A DNA stretch of 16,734 bases from Burkholderiales bacterium (GTDB lineage Bacteria; Pseudomonadota; Gammaproteobacteria; Burkholderiales; Casimicrobiaceae). Positions within the stretch are counted from its first letter, which is position 1. Each line of letters begins with the position of its first letter. Below the pieces are notes generated by a model. The model had not been told where the DNA came from. It searched no databases and worked only from the letters and a program-made list of their open reading frames with translations. Shown here piece by piece: positions 3,590-14,312 of this stretch. Made by a program: the position numbers and the translations under genes. Location: assembly GCA_025354075.1 (NCBI GenBank), contig JANXNO010000019.1:1-16734 (forward strand). Reading direction: 5' to 3'.

Positions 3590-3936
3590 CCGCGCGAAGC
3601 GCGGCGTAGTCCCCTCTCCCCTCGCGGGAGAGGGCTAGGGTGAGGGGGCGCTTCGAATGATGTGGTGCTTATGCCACGCGCCGGTTTCGCCTGAGGGCAA
3701 GTTACTTTTTTGCTTCGCCAAAATAAGTAACCAAAAAAAGGCGACCCCGACGATTGGCCTGATCCTGCGATGCTCAGAAAAAAGCGGAACGAAAAAAACT
3801 CGCTATCGCTCAAACAGTTTTTCGTTCTGATCGCTTTTTTCCTCCGCTTCTCGGGGCCAATCAACGGGGACCCTTCGAACCGATATTTGATCGCTACGCG
3901 ATGAAGATTACGAAGGCCCGGATGCGCACATCCAGC
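3590..3936. repeat. Left arm of a ~350 bp inverted repeat pair flanking the alarmone synthetase gene
   Basis: This gene-free stretch fills exactly the space between the purK stop codon and the convergent alarmone-synthetase stop codon. Its reverse complement matches 5061-5413. The core 3758-3900 against 5100-5241 differs, by eye, by three substitutions and one single-base indel; outer parts are more diverged but alignable. Inside are several hairpins: 3590-3604 (CCGCGC-GAA-GCGCGG), 3612-3634 (CCCTCTCCC-CTCGC-GGGAGAGGG), an A-run/T-run hairpin at 3778-3840, and GGATG-CGCA-CATCC near 3920-3933. Open frames crossing the arm give odd low-complexity proteins and were not accepted as genes. No transposase is present. 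The CCCTCTCC/GGAGAGGG motif is of a type common in dispersed beta- and gammaproteobacterial repeats. It may also serve as a bidirectional terminator. Confidence 0.88.
3778..3840. terminator. Candidate bidirectional terminator hairpin in left repeat arm
   Basis: A run of six A (3778-3783) precedes GCGGAACGAAAAAAAC. After a short middle part the partly complementary GTTTTTCGTTCTGATCGC leads into six T (3835-3840). The imperfect stem, bordered by A on one side and T on the other, has the shape of an intrinsic terminator in both directions. It lies between the convergent purK and alarmone-synthetase genes. The same structure is present at 5160-5221 in the right arm. Confidence 0.45.
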
Positions 3937-4980
3937 TTACGCTGCAGCAAGTTTTTCAATTCTCGCTAGCGCTGCAAGAAACTGCTCAGTGTCGAGAAAG
4001 TAGTTGGGGTAAGCTCGCCTTAGCGAGTCAATGGATACCGTACTGACCAACACAGTCTGCATGTCCGAATGGCTTAGCGCGACTTTCTCCGCCTCTGCAT
4101 AGGCTGCGTTCGCCTCGTCCAATCGCTTCTTGCCGAACGAACTTATCGTAACTGTTCGTTCAACTGCGTCAAGCACTATTAGATGAAAATTGCCGCCAAC
4201 ATTGCTTGAGGTAATGGCATTCGCGGCGACAGCAAAGGCATTTAGTTTTCGCCGGACGTCTAGCGCCTTCTCAAGCTCCACACAGCGCTTGTAAATATTG
4301 CTGGGCGATTGGCCGGCAAATTGGTCGGCAACGGGGCACTTTTCGATGAGAGCAAATGCACTGCCAACCACCTTGAAGTAGTCCAGCCAGTCTTCTGGCC
4401 CTTCATTGGATTTCAATGCCTGATTCAAAAACGATCCAATGGTCTCGACTGCGGTCGCCCAAGCATGCTGGAGGCGAGTTCGAATCTGAAGTTCAAGACA
4501 CAGTCCGTTGTAGTCCGGTGCTTGGTCATTCTTGTATTTGTAAATTAAGTGAAGGCTTCGATAACCGGATGTCTTTGGCGTTTGAATGTAGTCGTCTGTA
4601 TCAATTAGTTCGTGTGCGAGGCTGCCATTGGTGTAAATCGCATGCAACTTTCTTACTTGGGCTACCGAGCCGACTACCGCGCGTAGCCCACCAATGTCTT
4701 GCATCCTCGCAAGCTGCATGCCGCTGTTGTTCTCCAATTTTTTGATAATTGAAGGCAAGCGCTTCATACGTGTCGCTACAAGCGCATCAGCACAGACTTT
4801 TTTCAGCCGCCAGCGTAACGTTGCCTGAAACGTGTTCATGGGATACGCGTGACACGCTCGCCAGTGGTTGATCAGAACGAGTGCCTCTGCCATTGCGTGC
4901 GAAGTCTTGTTCGGCACAATCAGAACTCCGCCTGCTCGGTTGACCTGACCACGGGTAAAGTTTGGAATGGTGTAAGACAT
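3937..4980 (-). CDS. Stand-alone RelA/SpoT-type (p)ppGpp synthetase domain protein
   Basis: The 347-residue protein contains a RelA/SpoT nucleotide pyrophosphokinase domain (about residues 55-185). Visible are RMKRLPSIIKKL (71-82), QDIGGLRAVV with metal-binding Asp95, DYIQTPKTSGYRSLHL (130-145) with the nucleotide-stacking Tyr140, and LELQIRT with catalytic Glu163. All expected catalytic positions are therefore present. There is no HD hydrolase domain and no TGS/ACT regulatory region, so it is neither full-length RelA nor SpoT. Residues 186-347 form a mostly helical extension I do not recognise. Family members move pyrophosphate from ATP to GDP/GTP; toxic relatives make ppApp or modify tRNA. 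An in-frame TAA 12 bp upstream excludes a longer protein from ATG. Base composition is lower than in neighbours (52 of 120 bases are G/C at 4501-4620, against 35 of 60 at 2581-2640), and inverted repeats flank the gene, suggesting transfer. No antitoxin-like partner gene is visible. Confidence 0.87.
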   Translation of the reverse strand: MSYTIPNFTRGQVNRAGGVLIVPNKTSHAMAEALVLINHWRACHAYPMNTFQATLRWRLKKVCADALVATRMKRLPSIIKKLENNSGMQLARMQDIGGLRAVVGSVAQVRKLHAIYTNGSLAHELIDTDDYIQTPKTSGYRSLHLIYKYKNDQAPDYNGLCLELQIRTRLQHAWATAVETIGSFLNQALKSNEGPEDWLDYFKVVGSAFALIEKCPVADQFAGQSPSNIYKRCVELEKALDVRRKLNAFAVAANAITSSNVGGNFHLIVLDAVERTVTISSFGKKRLDEANAAYAEAEKVALSHSDMQTVLVSTVSIDSLRRAYPNYFLDTEQFLAALARIEKLAAA

Positions 4981-5060
4981 GCGCGAAGTTTAAGGTGAAA
5001 ATTACTCCTATAGCGCGCGATGCTCTGGCTTGGCATCAAGCTTCGTGCTCGGCTTCAGCA

Positions 5061-5413
5061 GAGCTCGGATGCTCGCATCCGAGCGTTCGTAGCCCGCATC
5101 GCGTAGCGATCAAATATCAATTCGATGGGTCCCCGTTGATTGGCCCCGAGAAGCGGAGGAAAAAAGCGATCAGAACGAAAAACTGTTTGAGCGAAGCGAG
5201 TTTTTTTCGTTCCGCTTTTTTCTGAGCATCGCAGGATCAGGACAAGCGTCGGGGTCGCCTTCTTTGGGTTACCTTTCTTGGCGAAGCAAGAAAGGTGACT
5301 GCCCCCGCGGCATGAGCGGGATCGTGGCAAACGGACATCTCCGTTCAACGAGCCACCCTCACCCTAACCCTCTCCCGCTTGCGGGAGAGGGGACTACGCC
5401 GCGCTTCGCGCGC
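5061..5413. repeat. Right arm of the inverted repeat pair flanking the alarmone synthetase gene
   Basis: This is the inverted partner of 3590-3936. It lies in the 465 bp gene-free stretch between the alarmone-synthetase start (4980) and the CoA-transferase start (5446). It contains a perfect 10 bp hairpin at 5063-5084 (GCTCGGATGC-TC-GCATCCGAGC), the A-run/T-run hairpin at 5160-5221, and a perfect 11 bp hairpin at 5368-5391 (CCCTCTCCCGC-TT-GCGGGAGAGGG). The outer end is GACTACGCCGCGCTTCGCGC, matching the purK-proximal end of the left arm. The 80 bp between 4981 and 5060 is not repeated and must hold the promoter of the synthetase gene if that lies outside the arm. No credible coding frame or transposase was seen. 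Confidence 0.88.
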
Positions 5414-10702: not shown

Positions 10703-11164
10703 CTAAATCGGCAACGGACCGCCGTCCTTCACCGCCTCAATCACCGCATAGGTTCGCGTTTCGCGCACACCGGGAAACTGCCATAGCCGTCGACTGGCAA
10801 ATTCGCGATACGCCTCCATGTCACGCACCCGCAGTTTGATCAGGTAATCGAATCCGCCCGCCACCATGTGGCATTCGCTGATCTCGGGATGGGTCAGCAC
10901 GGCCGCTTTGAACGCATCAAAAATGTTCGGCGTGGTGCGATCCAGCAGCACTTCCACGAATACCGTCATGCCGCAGCCGAGCTTCGTGGCATCGAGCTTC
11001 GCCTCGTAGCCGACAATAAAGCCATCGCGTTGCAGCCGTTGTGTGCGCGCCAGCACCGCAGTCGGCGACAGCGACACCGTCTCGGCGAGCTTCAAATTGC
11101 TGATGCGCCCGTCGTGTTGCAGGGCAATCAGAATCTTTCGATCAATGGCGTCAATTTCGGGCAT
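10703..11164 (-). CDS. Lrp/AsnC-family transcriptional regulator
   Basis: The 153-residue protein has an N-terminal winged helix-turn-helix (IDRKILIALQHDGRISNLKL, then LAETVSLSPTAVLARTQRLQ and DGFIVGYEA) and a C-terminal RAM ligand-binding domain (about residues 65-150, with VAGGFDYLIKLRVRDMEAY). Family members form dimers to octamers and respond to amino acids. Its divergent position next to putA is that of PutR-type activators known in alphaproteobacteria, so proline-dependent control of putA is the natural inference. No gene symbol is given because Lrp, BkdR and PutR types cannot be separated by eye. The ATG at 11164 fits the family N-terminus; no strong ribosome site is visible. The short AT-rich region upstream probably holds operators for both genes. 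Confidence 0.9.
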   Translation of the reverse strand: MPEIDAIDRKILIALQHDGRISNLKLAETVSLSPTAVLARTQRLQRDGFIVGYEAKLDATKLGCGMTVFVEVLLDRTTPNIFDAFKAAVLTHPEISECHMVAGGFDYLIKLRVRDMEAYREFASRRLWQFPGVRETRTYAVIEAVKDGGPLPI

Positions 11165-11203: not shown

Positions 11204-11246
11204 TGAATAAATAATCGAAAACAAAAATAACATAGTGATTTATTCA
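11204..11246. promoter_or_regulatory. Inverted repeat in the lrp-putA intergenic region, candidate Lrp-type operator
   Basis: TGAATAAAT (11204-11212) and ATTTATTCA (11238-11246) are exact reverse complements with centres 34 bp apart. They lie in the AT-rich space between the regulator and putA; the second half overlaps the proposed GTG start of putA. Lrp-family proteins bind AT-rich, spaced palindromic sites, so this is a plausible operator, but binding is inferred. Confidence 0.4.
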
Positions 11247-13880
11247 GCAAATCCTGAGTTCAGTCCATTTGGCTCTGACATCAAGCGAATCATCATGCGC
11301 CTGCCCCAACCTTACCGTGAAGAACTGGCGATTGTTCGCCGCAACGTCGCCAGTGCCGCCGCCGTGCTCGACTGGCCGCAAATCATCGACGCCGCCCGAC
11401 CGTGGGTGACCGCCGTTCGCGACAACCCGCCACCGTTCTGGGCAATGGAAAGTTTGCTCAAGGAGTATCCGATCTCCAAACCCGAAGGCCTCGCGCTGAT
11501 GCGCCTCGCCGAGGCGCTACTTCGAGTGCCTGATTCGGCGACGGCCATCGCGCTGACCGCCGATCAACTGGGCCGCGCCAACTTTGATGGCACTGGCGAC
11601 GGCATGATGTCTCGCCTTTCGAATTCCGTAATTGGGTTGTCGAAAAAGACGCTACCCGAGGCGGATCATCCGTCGGGCCTGTTCGGCAAGCTGGGCGCAA
11701 AAACGGTCGTTGCCGCAACGGTGCGTGCGGTGCAATTGCTGGCCAAACAATTCGTACTCGGACAGACGATTGAAGAGGCCTTAGCTGAAGCGAAATCGCA
11801 ACGAAAAGAATCAGATTACCTGCGCTTCAGCTTTGACATGCTTGGCGAAGGCGCCCGCACGATGGAAGACGCGGATCGATATTTTGCAAGCTACGAGCAC
11901 GCGATAAAAAACCTCGCAAAAGCGCATGCCGCCTCACCCACACAAGGCCCGGAAGACTCGGACGGCATATCGATCAAGCTCTCCGCGCTACATCCGCGTT
12001 ACGAAGACGCGCAGCGCGATCGCGTGATGAATGAGCTGGTGCCCCGCGTGTGGCAACTCTGCGAAATGGCCGCCGCGGCGCAGATCAATTTGACGATTGA
12101 TGCAGAGGAAGTTGATCGCCTCGAACTCTCGCTTGATGTGTTCGAAGCGTTGTTGAAACAGGTGCAGGCGAAGTGTCCGCAATGGCGCGGTTTTGGTCTG
12201 GCGTTGCAGGCGTACCAGACGCGCTGCCTCGAACTGATCGAGCACGTCGGCGCTCTGGCGCGGCAGTACAACGTGCGGCTGATGTGCCGTCTGGTCAAGG
12301 GCGCGTACTGGGACAGCGAGATCAAGCGGGCGCAGGAAATGGGCTTGCCAGCGTATCCGGTGTTCACGCACAAACAGCATTCCGATTCGAGTTATCTCGC
12401 CTGCGCCGCGTCGCTGCTCAAACAGAAGGATGTGTTCTTTCCGCAGTTCGCCACGCACAACGCCGGCACGATTGCTGCCATTTTTCAGATGGCGAAACAG
12501 TTCGATGCGCCGTTTGAACTCCAGAGGTTGCACGGCATGGGGACTGGCGTATATCGCGAGATTTTTCGCTCTGGCAGCGGCTCCGGCAACCGAGAAAAAT
12601 CCACACAAACCGTACGTATCTACGCGCCGGTCGGCTCGCACGGCGACCTGCTCGCCTACCTCGTTCGCCGCTTGCTTGAGAACGGTGCCAACTCGTCGTT
12701 CGTGCATCAGCTCTCCGATGACACGGTGGATATCGACGAGCTACTGGCCACGCCGCTGACCGTTGCCGAGACAACCGATCTGCCGTTGCCGAAAGACATC
12801 CTGTTGCCGCGCGTCAATAGCGCTGGCGTTGATCTAACAGTCGAGTCAATGCGTGCGCCGCTGCTCGCCGCGTACGCGTCCGTGCAAGTCGCTCACCCTG
12901 CCGACGCGTCCGCGCAGCAAGCCGCCGATGCCATGCGCACGGCGCACGCAGCGTTCACGGCGTGGCGTGACGTGCCCGTCGCCAACCGCGCGATGATGTT
13001 GCGCCGGGCCGCCGACGCGATGCAGGCGGAGCTGCCGCGATTCTGCGCGCTGCTGGTTAAAGAAGCGTTAAAAACTTGGGGCGACGCCGTCTCCGAAGTG
13101 CGCGAAGCGATTGATTTTCTGCGTTATTACGCGGATGAGGCCGAGCGGATCTGCGCGCCGATCAAATTGCCTGGTCCGACCGGCGAGGACAACGTGCTGC
13201 GCCTGCACGGTCGCGGTGTGTGGGTGTGCATCAGTCCGTGGAATTTTCCGCTGGCGATATTCATGGGGCAGGTCGCCGCCGCACTGGTGACCGGCAACGC
13301 AGTGGTTGCAAAGCCAGCGGAGCAAACCCCAGCGGTTGCTATCGAGGCGGTGAGTTTGTTGCACGCGGCGGGTGTGCCTGTCGATGCCCTGCAAGTCATC
13401 ACAGGTCTAGGTGAAACGGTCGGTGCCGCGCTGGTCGCGCACGAAAAAGTGGCAGGTGTCGTGTTCACTGGCTCCACGCAGGTCGCCAAAATCATCCAGC
13501 GCAGCCTCGCCAACAAAGACGGCCCGATCGTTCCGCTGATCGCGGAAACTGGTGGCATCAACGCGATGCTGGTGGACTCCACTGCCCTGCCTGAGCATGT
13601 GGCAGATGGAGTCGTGCAATCCGCCTTTCGCTCGGCGGGCCAGCGTTGTTCGGCGCTGCGGCTGTTGTGCCTGCATGAAGAAGTGGCCGACAAGGTCATC
13701 CACATGCTGCACGGTGCGGCGAAAGAATTGACAGTTGGCGCTACGCAGCATTTGGCAACTGATGTCGGGCCTTTGATTGATAGTGATGCGTTTGCTGGCA
13801 TCAGCGCGCACGTGGAGCGGCTGAATTCTGTAGGAGCGGCTCTGCCGCGACCTGATTCGGGCGCTACGGGTCGCGGCTGA
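11235..13880 (+). CDS. putA: Bifunctional proline dehydrogenase / P5C dehydrogenase PutA, truncated by an in-frame stop
   Basis: This 881-residue open frame holds the FAD-dependent proline dehydrogenase domain (roughly 150-520; RLVKGAYWDSEIKRAQ, YPVFTHKQHSDSSYL, LHGMG, RIYAPVGSHGDLLAYLVRR) and most of the NAD-dependent P5C dehydrogenase domain (ISPWNFPLAIFMGQ, VFTGSTQVAK, Glu771 in AETGG, catalytic Cys805 in GQRCSALR). PutA oxidises proline to glutamate at the membrane. There is no N-terminal ribbon-helix-helix DNA-binding domain, so it is a type A PutA, consistent with a separate regulator next door. The frame ends at TGA 13878 inside a palindromic insertion at 13830-13891; the family sequence resumes in the same frame at about codon 890. 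The last 17 residues (from SVGAALP) come from the insertion. A GTG at 11235 is chosen because PFGSDIKRIIMRLPQPY, before the first ATG (11295), looks like family sequence; no good ribosome site is visible. Confidence 0.88.
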   Translation: MIYSANPEFSPFGSDIKRIIMRLPQPYREELAIVRRNVASAAAVLDWPQIIDAARPWVTAVRDNPPPFWAMESLLKEYPISKPEGLALMRLAEALLRVPDSATAIALTADQLGRANFDGTGDGMMSRLSNSVIGLSKKTLPEADHPSGLFGKLGAKTVVAATVRAVQLLAKQFVLGQTIEEALAEAKSQRKESDYLRFSFDMLGEGARTMEDADRYFASYEHAIKNLAKAHAASPTQGPEDSDGISIKLSALHPRYEDAQRDRVMNELVPRVWQLCEMAAAAQINLTIDAEEVDRLELSLDVFEALLKQVQAKCPQWRGFGLALQAYQTRCLELIEHVGALARQYNVRLMCRLVKGAYWDSEIKRAQEMGLPAYPVFTHKQHSDSSYLACAASLLKQKDVFFPQFATHNAGTIAAIFQMAKQFDAPFELQRLHGMGTGVYREIFRSGSGSGNREKSTQTVRIYAPVGSHGDLLAYLVRRLLENGANSSFVHQLSDDTVDIDELLATPLTVAETTDLPLPKDILLPRVNSAGVDLTVESMRAPLLAAYASVQVAHPADASAQQAADAMRTAHAAFTAWRDVPVANRAMMLRRAADAMQAELPRFCALLVKEALKTWGDAVSEVREAIDFLRYYADEAERICAPIKLPGPTGEDNVLRLHGRGVWVCISPWNFPLAIFMGQVAAALVTGNAVVAKPAEQTPAVAIEAVSLLHAAGVPVDALQVITGLGETVGAALVAHEKVAGVVFTGSTQVAKIIQRSLANKDGPIVPLIAETGGINAMLVDSTALPEHVADGVVQSAFRSAGQRCSALRLLCLHEEVADKVIHMLHGAAKELTVGATQHLATDVGPLIDSDAFAGISAHVERLNSVGAALPRPDSGATGRG

Positions 13881-13891
13881 GCCGCTCCTAC
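13830..13891. repeat. REP-like palindromic element inserted in putA
   Basis: Two 22 bp arms (13831-13852 and 13869-13890; GTAGGAGCGGCTC outermost) flank a 16 bp loop and pair with one mismatch; G13830/C13891 extends the stem. GTAGGAGCGGC with GCCGCGACC is the style of REP elements known best from pseudomonads and xanthomonads. The 60 bp unit is a multiple of three, so the putA frame is kept on both sides. The only stem mismatch, T13878 against T13843, makes the in-frame TGA at 13878-13880; a perfectly complementary base (A) would read AGA, arginine. No clear target duplication is seen. Confidence 0.88.
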
Positions 13892-13901
13892 CGTTTCGAA
13901 C

Positions 13902-14312
13902 ATGGATGCGGCGACCCACACCATCGGCCCGCACATTTTTGAGATTGGCAGCATCGCCGACGTTAAGCAGGAAATCTTCGGCCCGGTGCTGCAAATCGTT
14001 CGCTGGTCGGGCGATCCGCACGCGGTGATTGATCAGATCAATGCGCTGGGTTACGGTCTGACGCTAGGCATCCAGACCCGCATCGACAGCCGTGCCGAGA
14101 GCCTCGCTCATCGTGCGCGCGTCGGTAATGTCTACGTCAATCGCAATATTATCGGCGCAGTCGTGGGCGTGCAGCCGTTTGGTGGTGAGGGTTTGAGCGG
14201 CACCGGGCCCAAGGCGGGCGGGCCGTTCTATCTGCCGCGCTTTTGCGGTGAGCAAACCATCACCATCAACACGGTCGCAGCGGGCGGCAACGTCACGCTG
14301 CTGATGGCATAG
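13902..14312 (+). CDS. putA: C-terminal fragment of PutA (P5C dehydrogenase end), downstream of the in-frame stop
   Basis: These 136 residues continue the aldehyde-dehydrogenase domain of PutA in the same frame as the upstream part: IGPHIFEIGSIADVKQEIFG, GYGLTLGIQTRID, VGNVYVNRNIIGAVVG, VQPFGGEGLSGTGPKAGGP and a typical type A PutA ending (FYLPRFCGEQTITINTVAAG). They hold the EIFGP cofactor-side motif and the oligomerisation strand, without which P5C dehydrogenase is not expected to be active. The ATG at 13902 has no visible ribosome site, so independent translation is doubtful. The fragment is either a decayed gene end or is reached by readthrough of the TGA. Without the 60 bp insert the whole gene (11235-14312) would encode about 1005 residues, the usual size of a type A PutA. 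Confidence 0.8.
   Translation: MDAATHTIGPHIFEIGSIADVKQEIFGPVLQIVRWSGDPHAVIDQINALGYGLTLGIQTRIDSRAESLAHRARVGNVYVNRNIIGAVVGVQPFGGEGLSGTGPKAGGPFYLPRFCGEQTITINTVAAGGNVTLLMA

Follow-up and report, generated by a model that had tools for sequence, protein, structure and literature searches.

A GTAG-REP-like palindrome with an in-frame stop codon in a PutA loop that holds repeat-derived peptides in many relatives

Within the putA gene of an uncultured bacterium of the Casimicrobium group, a palindrome made of two inverted, GTAG-tagged REP-like units lies in frame, and the apical loop of its second unit is a TGA stop codon. The explanation that best covers the whole, and that we regard as very probable, is that a REP doublet was captured in a tolerant loop of the enzyme and that the TGA is a private and very recent change. 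The copy number of the repeat, the palindrome, the preserved frame, the open versions in relatives and the variability of the loop are established, while the stop is the least secure part of the finding. A preliminary description of this DNA had overlooked that the stop coincides with the loop of a REP hairpin, and that many relatives have peptides derived from repeats in this PutA loop.

The putA locus and its palindrome

The window, that is, the whole stretch of 16,734 nucleotides that was analysed, lies within one contig of a draft genome of 689 contigs (4.38 Mb, about 91% complete). The nearest protein relatives include two Casimicrobium-named homologues, P0048 and P0065. The features concerned are the following.

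10703..11164, minus strand: Lrp/AsnC-type regulator, divergent and adjoining putA (context)
11235..13880, plus strand: putA up to the in-frame stop, with the DNA-binding and proline dehydrogenase domains and the beginning of the P5C dehydrogenase domain
13830..13891, no strand: REPIN-like palindrome within putA, 62 bp
13830..13852, plus strand: 5' GTAG-tagged REP unit, loop TCT
13869..13891, minus strand: 3' inverted REP unit, loop TGA on the plus strand
13878..13880, plus strand: in-frame TGA, apical loop of the 3' REP hairpin
13881..14312, plus strand: remainder of the putA reading frame, with the last portion of the P5C dehydrogenase domain and the first in-frame ATG at 13902

The likely start of putA is the ATG at 11295 (alternative GTG at 11235), which gives about 861 amino acids up to the stop instead of the 881 residues proposed previously. 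According to Pfam, the proline dehydrogenase domain lies entirely upstream of the TGA and the aldehyde dehydrogenase domain is cut by it, with positions 16-334 of 461 before and 365-459 after. The frame of the ORF 11235-13880 stays open beyond the stop as far as 14312, in agreement with the preliminary description, in which the frame is kept, so that both dehydrogenase domains characteristic of PutA stand in one frame, although the stop splits the second. Between 9180 and 16615, putA is flanked by a gene for an ABC amino-acid binding protein, the divergent regulator and two branched-chain permease genes, and this neighbourhood is possibly a cluster for proline uptake and use. Elsewhere in the window, long inverted repeats at 3591-3948 and 5052-5412 (four pairs, 87-100% complementary) enclose a minus-strand ORF (3937-4980) with a RelA_SpoT domain; together these are perhaps a small mobile unit. 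The ends of these inverted repeats contain a second repeat, of the CCCTCACCCCAACCCTCTCCC type.

Of the 23 positions in the arms of the putA palindrome (13830-13852 and 13869-13891), 22 are paired, T13843 opposite T13878 being the only mismatch. That mismatch had been noted before, in a stem given as 22 bp and an insert given as 60 bp; the arms are 23 bp long and the palindrome spans 62 bp, and an exact length of the insert cannot be fixed because the loop also varies in length among relatives without a palindrome. As RNA, the 62 nucleotides have a folding energy of -50.7 kcal/mol. Each REP unit folds as GCGGC-nnn-GCCGC, a stem of 5 bp with a loop of 3 nt (GCGGC-TGA-GCCGC in the 3' unit), and GTAG stands at one end of both short palindromic units, as in the GTAG REP superfamily. 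The stem is one pair short of the 6-13 bp given for that superfamily (PMC3733652), and we therefore name the element GTAG-REP-like and place it in none of the 24 GTAG families. Two inverted REPs and a spacer that form a hairpin together correspond to a REPIN.

The REP arm pattern has 101 matches in the genome of the window (53 + 48), against 5 for the reversed control pattern, and the same inverted-arm layout and spacing recur in 29 of 38 fetched loci. The repeat is thus, like other GTAG REPs, high-copy and mostly intergenic. The inverted-repeat scores of PutA linkers also stand apart: 20 for the window, 21 for L014/L042 and 16 for L015, with 11 as the best of the remainder (n = 107, a set that includes contig duplicates and counts the window twice). 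On both grounds the palindrome is not a chance feature, and its earlier description as REP-like is borne out. At 2 of the 29 paired loci a long frame crosses the pair (DedA 5' side, folD 3' end), neither being a clear gene interruption; widespread coding insertion of these REPs in this genome was accordingly rejected. Translated in the putA frame, the consensus REPIN reads VGAALPR...GRGRAAP, a peptide that is also found in homologues; of its other two frames, one stops at once in the 5' arm.

An ancestor would have acquired the GTAG-REP doublet in the tolerant loop, in a frame that both arms leave open, and would have retained it as about 20 residues of protein, presumably as a neutral peptide. 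Entry by RAYT-driven REP transposition is conceivable, and it is here that the explanation has one of its weaker points. RAYT genes score above the cut-off in 13 of 17 genomes of the genus, the window's own not being among them; that genome has two RAYT fragments only, the better with 77 bits against a cut-off of 80. No REP was found in the contig loci of these fragments, and the four RAYTs of G005 have no neighbour within 20 kb among its 75 listed arms, so that the adjacency of REPs and RAYT genes known from REPINs was not seen in the two genomes tested. Two tandem RAYT-like fragments with near-identical starts (L170 and L171) were observed on contig 435 of G000.

The stop codon and the frame behind it

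The mismatch is no odd defect of the stem. Its position belongs to the 3-nt loop of the small REP hairpin, and the two arms of a copy differ in this triplet in 19 of the 29 paired genomic copies; it is the most variable spot of the element, and an arm mismatch per se is therefore ordinary. What distinguishes the window is the codon. In the register of the stop, the 29 other paired copies have AGA (17), AAA (4), ACA (3), ATA (2), CGA, GGA and AGC (1 each), and none has a stop. The comparison of other copies at 13878 that had been proposed thus gave the outcome anticipated, and agrees with the claim that the disruption hinges on one base. A TCA triplet is found in a single one of the 50 listed exact arms (a list typed by hand), namely the 3' arm of the window itself; inspection by eye showed none in the other arms listed beyond these 50. 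G009, a different genome, has one TCA arm, with one mismatch. As none of the 29 paired copies has the stop and the single TCA of the exact arms is its own, the T at 13878 is a private change.

The homologous proteins agree with this. The eight other homologues with the same form of insert (type A, see below) that were listed have no stop at this codon; by eye, their residues are R in four, S, A and T in one each, and a shifted one (G). No broken insert was seen elsewhere among the 107 linkers and the 120 homologues, the latter being the 120 top-ranking ones among 8000 scored candidates. The window's protein forms a homologue cluster of one sequence, on one contig.

Behind the stop, 136 codons are still conserved. 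Their dN/dS is 0.018 against L010 and 0.031 against L039, compared with 0.061 and 0.075 upstream, and by eye P0002 differs from the window in two residues from ATHTIG to the end. The stop must therefore be very recent, artefactual or bypassed, and a long-standing pseudogene was rejected, as no relaxation follows the stop. A reservation attaches to three of nine pairwise comparisons (L041, L015, L043), where dN/dS is higher after the stop and synonymous distances are near saturation.

In the preferred explanation, the TGA would be a very recent state of one base only, located in the 3' REP unit's loop. That it is a new loss-of-function change, by which the P5C dehydrogenase domain loses its final part, we hold to be somewhat better than an even chance. 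The main competitor is a sequencing or assembly error in the metagenome-assembled contig, the cellular PutA being full length and containing the peptide. This is a real but lesser possibility, to which the fragmented draft, the single sequence, the fully conserved C-terminal part and the open type A homologues lend weight; on the other hand, there is no sign of poor sequence quality, and a point change is plausible for a base at the element's most variable place. T13878 is known from assembled sequence, in which a recent mutation and an error look alike. Of the four options raised in the preliminary description (recent mutation, sequencing error, readthrough, or an in-protein repeat caught before or after decay), a repeat caught after decay fits best, since the insert appears old, is open in relatives and has a private stop.

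It is improbable that the stop is real but bypassed, by readthrough of the TGA or by a restart at ATG 13902, so that the cell still produces P5C dehydrogenase, working or split. The conserved frame and an ATG 22 bases after the stop would suit such a bypass, as would the lack of a spare P5C dehydrogenase: the genome has four further aldehyde dehydrogenase matches, and the three that were examined are piperidine-6-carboxylate, methylmalonate-semialdehyde and phosphonoacetaldehyde dehydrogenases (the genome being about 91% complete). However, the same methionine stands inside the unbroken P0003 protein and hence did not arise as a start, and a recent stop accounts for the same conservation. An old, selected truncation that keeps proline dehydrogenase only seems scarcely credible: the cut does leave that domain intact, but constraint behind the stop is not relaxed and no relative among the homologues and loci read has the stop. 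We give equally little credence, or hardly more, to a palindrome that is not a captured mobile repeat and is retained in putA for a function in mRNA or DNA. Its hairpin is very stable, and in L014 (genome G007, 79% complete) no exact REP arm pair was found other than the putA copy, the pattern having 4 hits there against 4 control hits. Against such a function, L044 and L045 have the palindrome in decayed form, many relatives lack it, and homologues have unrelated peptides at the site. G007 does have RAYT genes, although putA holds its only exact arm pair.

A PutA loop with changing contents

The palindrome occupies a loop of the P5C dehydrogenase domain whose length varies. This loop is shorter and different in the nearest PutA proteins of solved structure (3haz, 4q72). 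In a model of P0003, residues 852-869 have no secondary structure and a pLDDT below 50, and they are preceded by a helix at 834-851; the model is weak (mean pLDDT 68.9, pTM 0.50), which counts as a point against the preferred explanation.

Open versions of the insert exist in the same frame and place, with the peptide VGAALPR...GRGRAAPT. P0003 has the loop and flank in common with the window (PRPDSxATGRG, APTVSNMDAATHT), without a stop and with Ser at the stop position. L014/L042 and L015 hold open palindromic copies in the same frame, L015 being a single-contig genome. Of the 16 genomes of the genus in which PutA has a close match, 3 show a strong palindrome at the site, two more (G003, G011) a decayed REP-like one and the remainder none; for G004, a draft with two putA copies on contigs C88 and C224, one copy was read. 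In a family-wide look at 13 loci, no repeat-like linkers were found beyond the genus. The repeat of L050 is weakly multi-copy, with 3 matches including itself.

Among 65 close homologues, which form the clade of the window, 30 have a repeat-like peptide at the loop, 21 of the REP type and nine resembling an unrelated palindromic repeat, five of these clearly so. By our own pattern labels, nine are of type A, five of B, seven of C (A, B and C being REP-like forms), nine of D and eight relic-like, and 27 have none. Type D can be read, by comparison of peptides, as an unrelated palindromic repeat in translation (PSPQPSP and GEGWGE from CCCTCACCCCAACCCTCTCCC); by motif, both arms are recognised in 5 of 9, one in 3 of 9 and neither in 1 of 9. 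The CCCTCACCCCAACCCTCTCCC-type repeat has 96 pattern matches in the window's genome and none for the control. A further type, CHAGLDPAS...WIPGQARDD, occurs in 4 of the 120 homologues (P0079, P0085, P0106, P0119) and in L086, whose own genome has 21 matches, itself included. The motif set, which was drawn from these same linkers, falls within the linker in 29 proteins (P0028 and P0048 placed by eye) and outside it in one (P0034, residue 17).

On a tree of 78 homologues, type A requires nine changes for nine rows and type D six, and these may be gains or losses. Sister pairs with support of 98-99 differ in their contents: P0009 (A) and P0022 (D), P0025 (D) and P0027 (A), P0042 (A) and P0054 (none). 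A difficulty for the preferred explanation is that P0002 is closer to the window by identity, yet lacks the insert, and that a clade of P0001 with P0003, which share it, is disfavoured (p-AU 0.0135, the pair having been picked after the tree was seen). A single old insertion therefore needs several losses, or local recombination. P0024 and P0031 show four differences outside the loop block, while within it 13 of 52 aligned residues differ, plus length, which from the sequences suggests recombination or a chimeric assembly in the loop.

It could be imagined, as a proposal more doubtful than not, that this one loop is a recurrent site of capture and exchange for unrelated palindromes: GTAG-REPs in at least three forms, the CCCTCACCCCAACCCTCTCCC type, and a third type in other Burkholderiales. 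Such repeats would enter in frame, live on as protein, shrink or be exchanged, with transposition or recombination across repeats as the mechanism, and would occasionally kill the enzyme when the repeat's own loop changes.

Relation to known palindromic repeats

One site of a well-studied enzyme offers a natural series of empty loop, fresh palindrome, decayed peptide, other repeat and stop. With natural orthologues at hand, it becomes testable whether a palindrome within a protein alters it or is carried as a neutral passenger. Moreover, the free loop of a REP hairpin turns into a codon under selection once the repeat sits in a gene. A literature search, in which the term PutA also matches "putative", found no work on repeats inside PutA.

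GTAG REPs are described as having a GTAG end, a small hairpin with a variable loop, stems of 6-13 bp, and a high copy number in mostly intergenic positions; some lie in frame inside genes, where dimers encode 20-30 residues, and recB has a REP at roughly one position in two Xanthomonas species, but not the same REP in both (Di Nocera et al. 2013, PMC3733652). The putA element resembles them in its GTAG end, small variable-loop hairpin, high copy number and in-frame copy, and differs in its stem of 5 bp with a 3-nt loop. The gene is also another one, the words proline, putA and dehydrogenase being absent from the main text of that paper, and compared with the cases it describes the putA loop has many more carriers, a second repeat type and a stop in the REP loop. 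REPINs, two inverted REPs and a spacer in one hairpin, were defined in extragenic space (Bertels and Rainey 2011, PMC3116915); the putA palindrome has the same architecture, but is coding and, in its own genome and G005, is a repeat without RAYT adjacency. Rickettsia palindromic elements lie in frame in genes for working proteins (cited via PMC3733652), whereas the present case concerns another organism and another repeat sequence, and here one gene loop recurs across species. In-frame intragenic REPs are thus already known, and putA is a new and unusually recurrent case. Events of this kind, in which a tolerant protein loop keeps a REP doublet in frame, are ordinary; what is unusual is the richness of the natural series at this single site.
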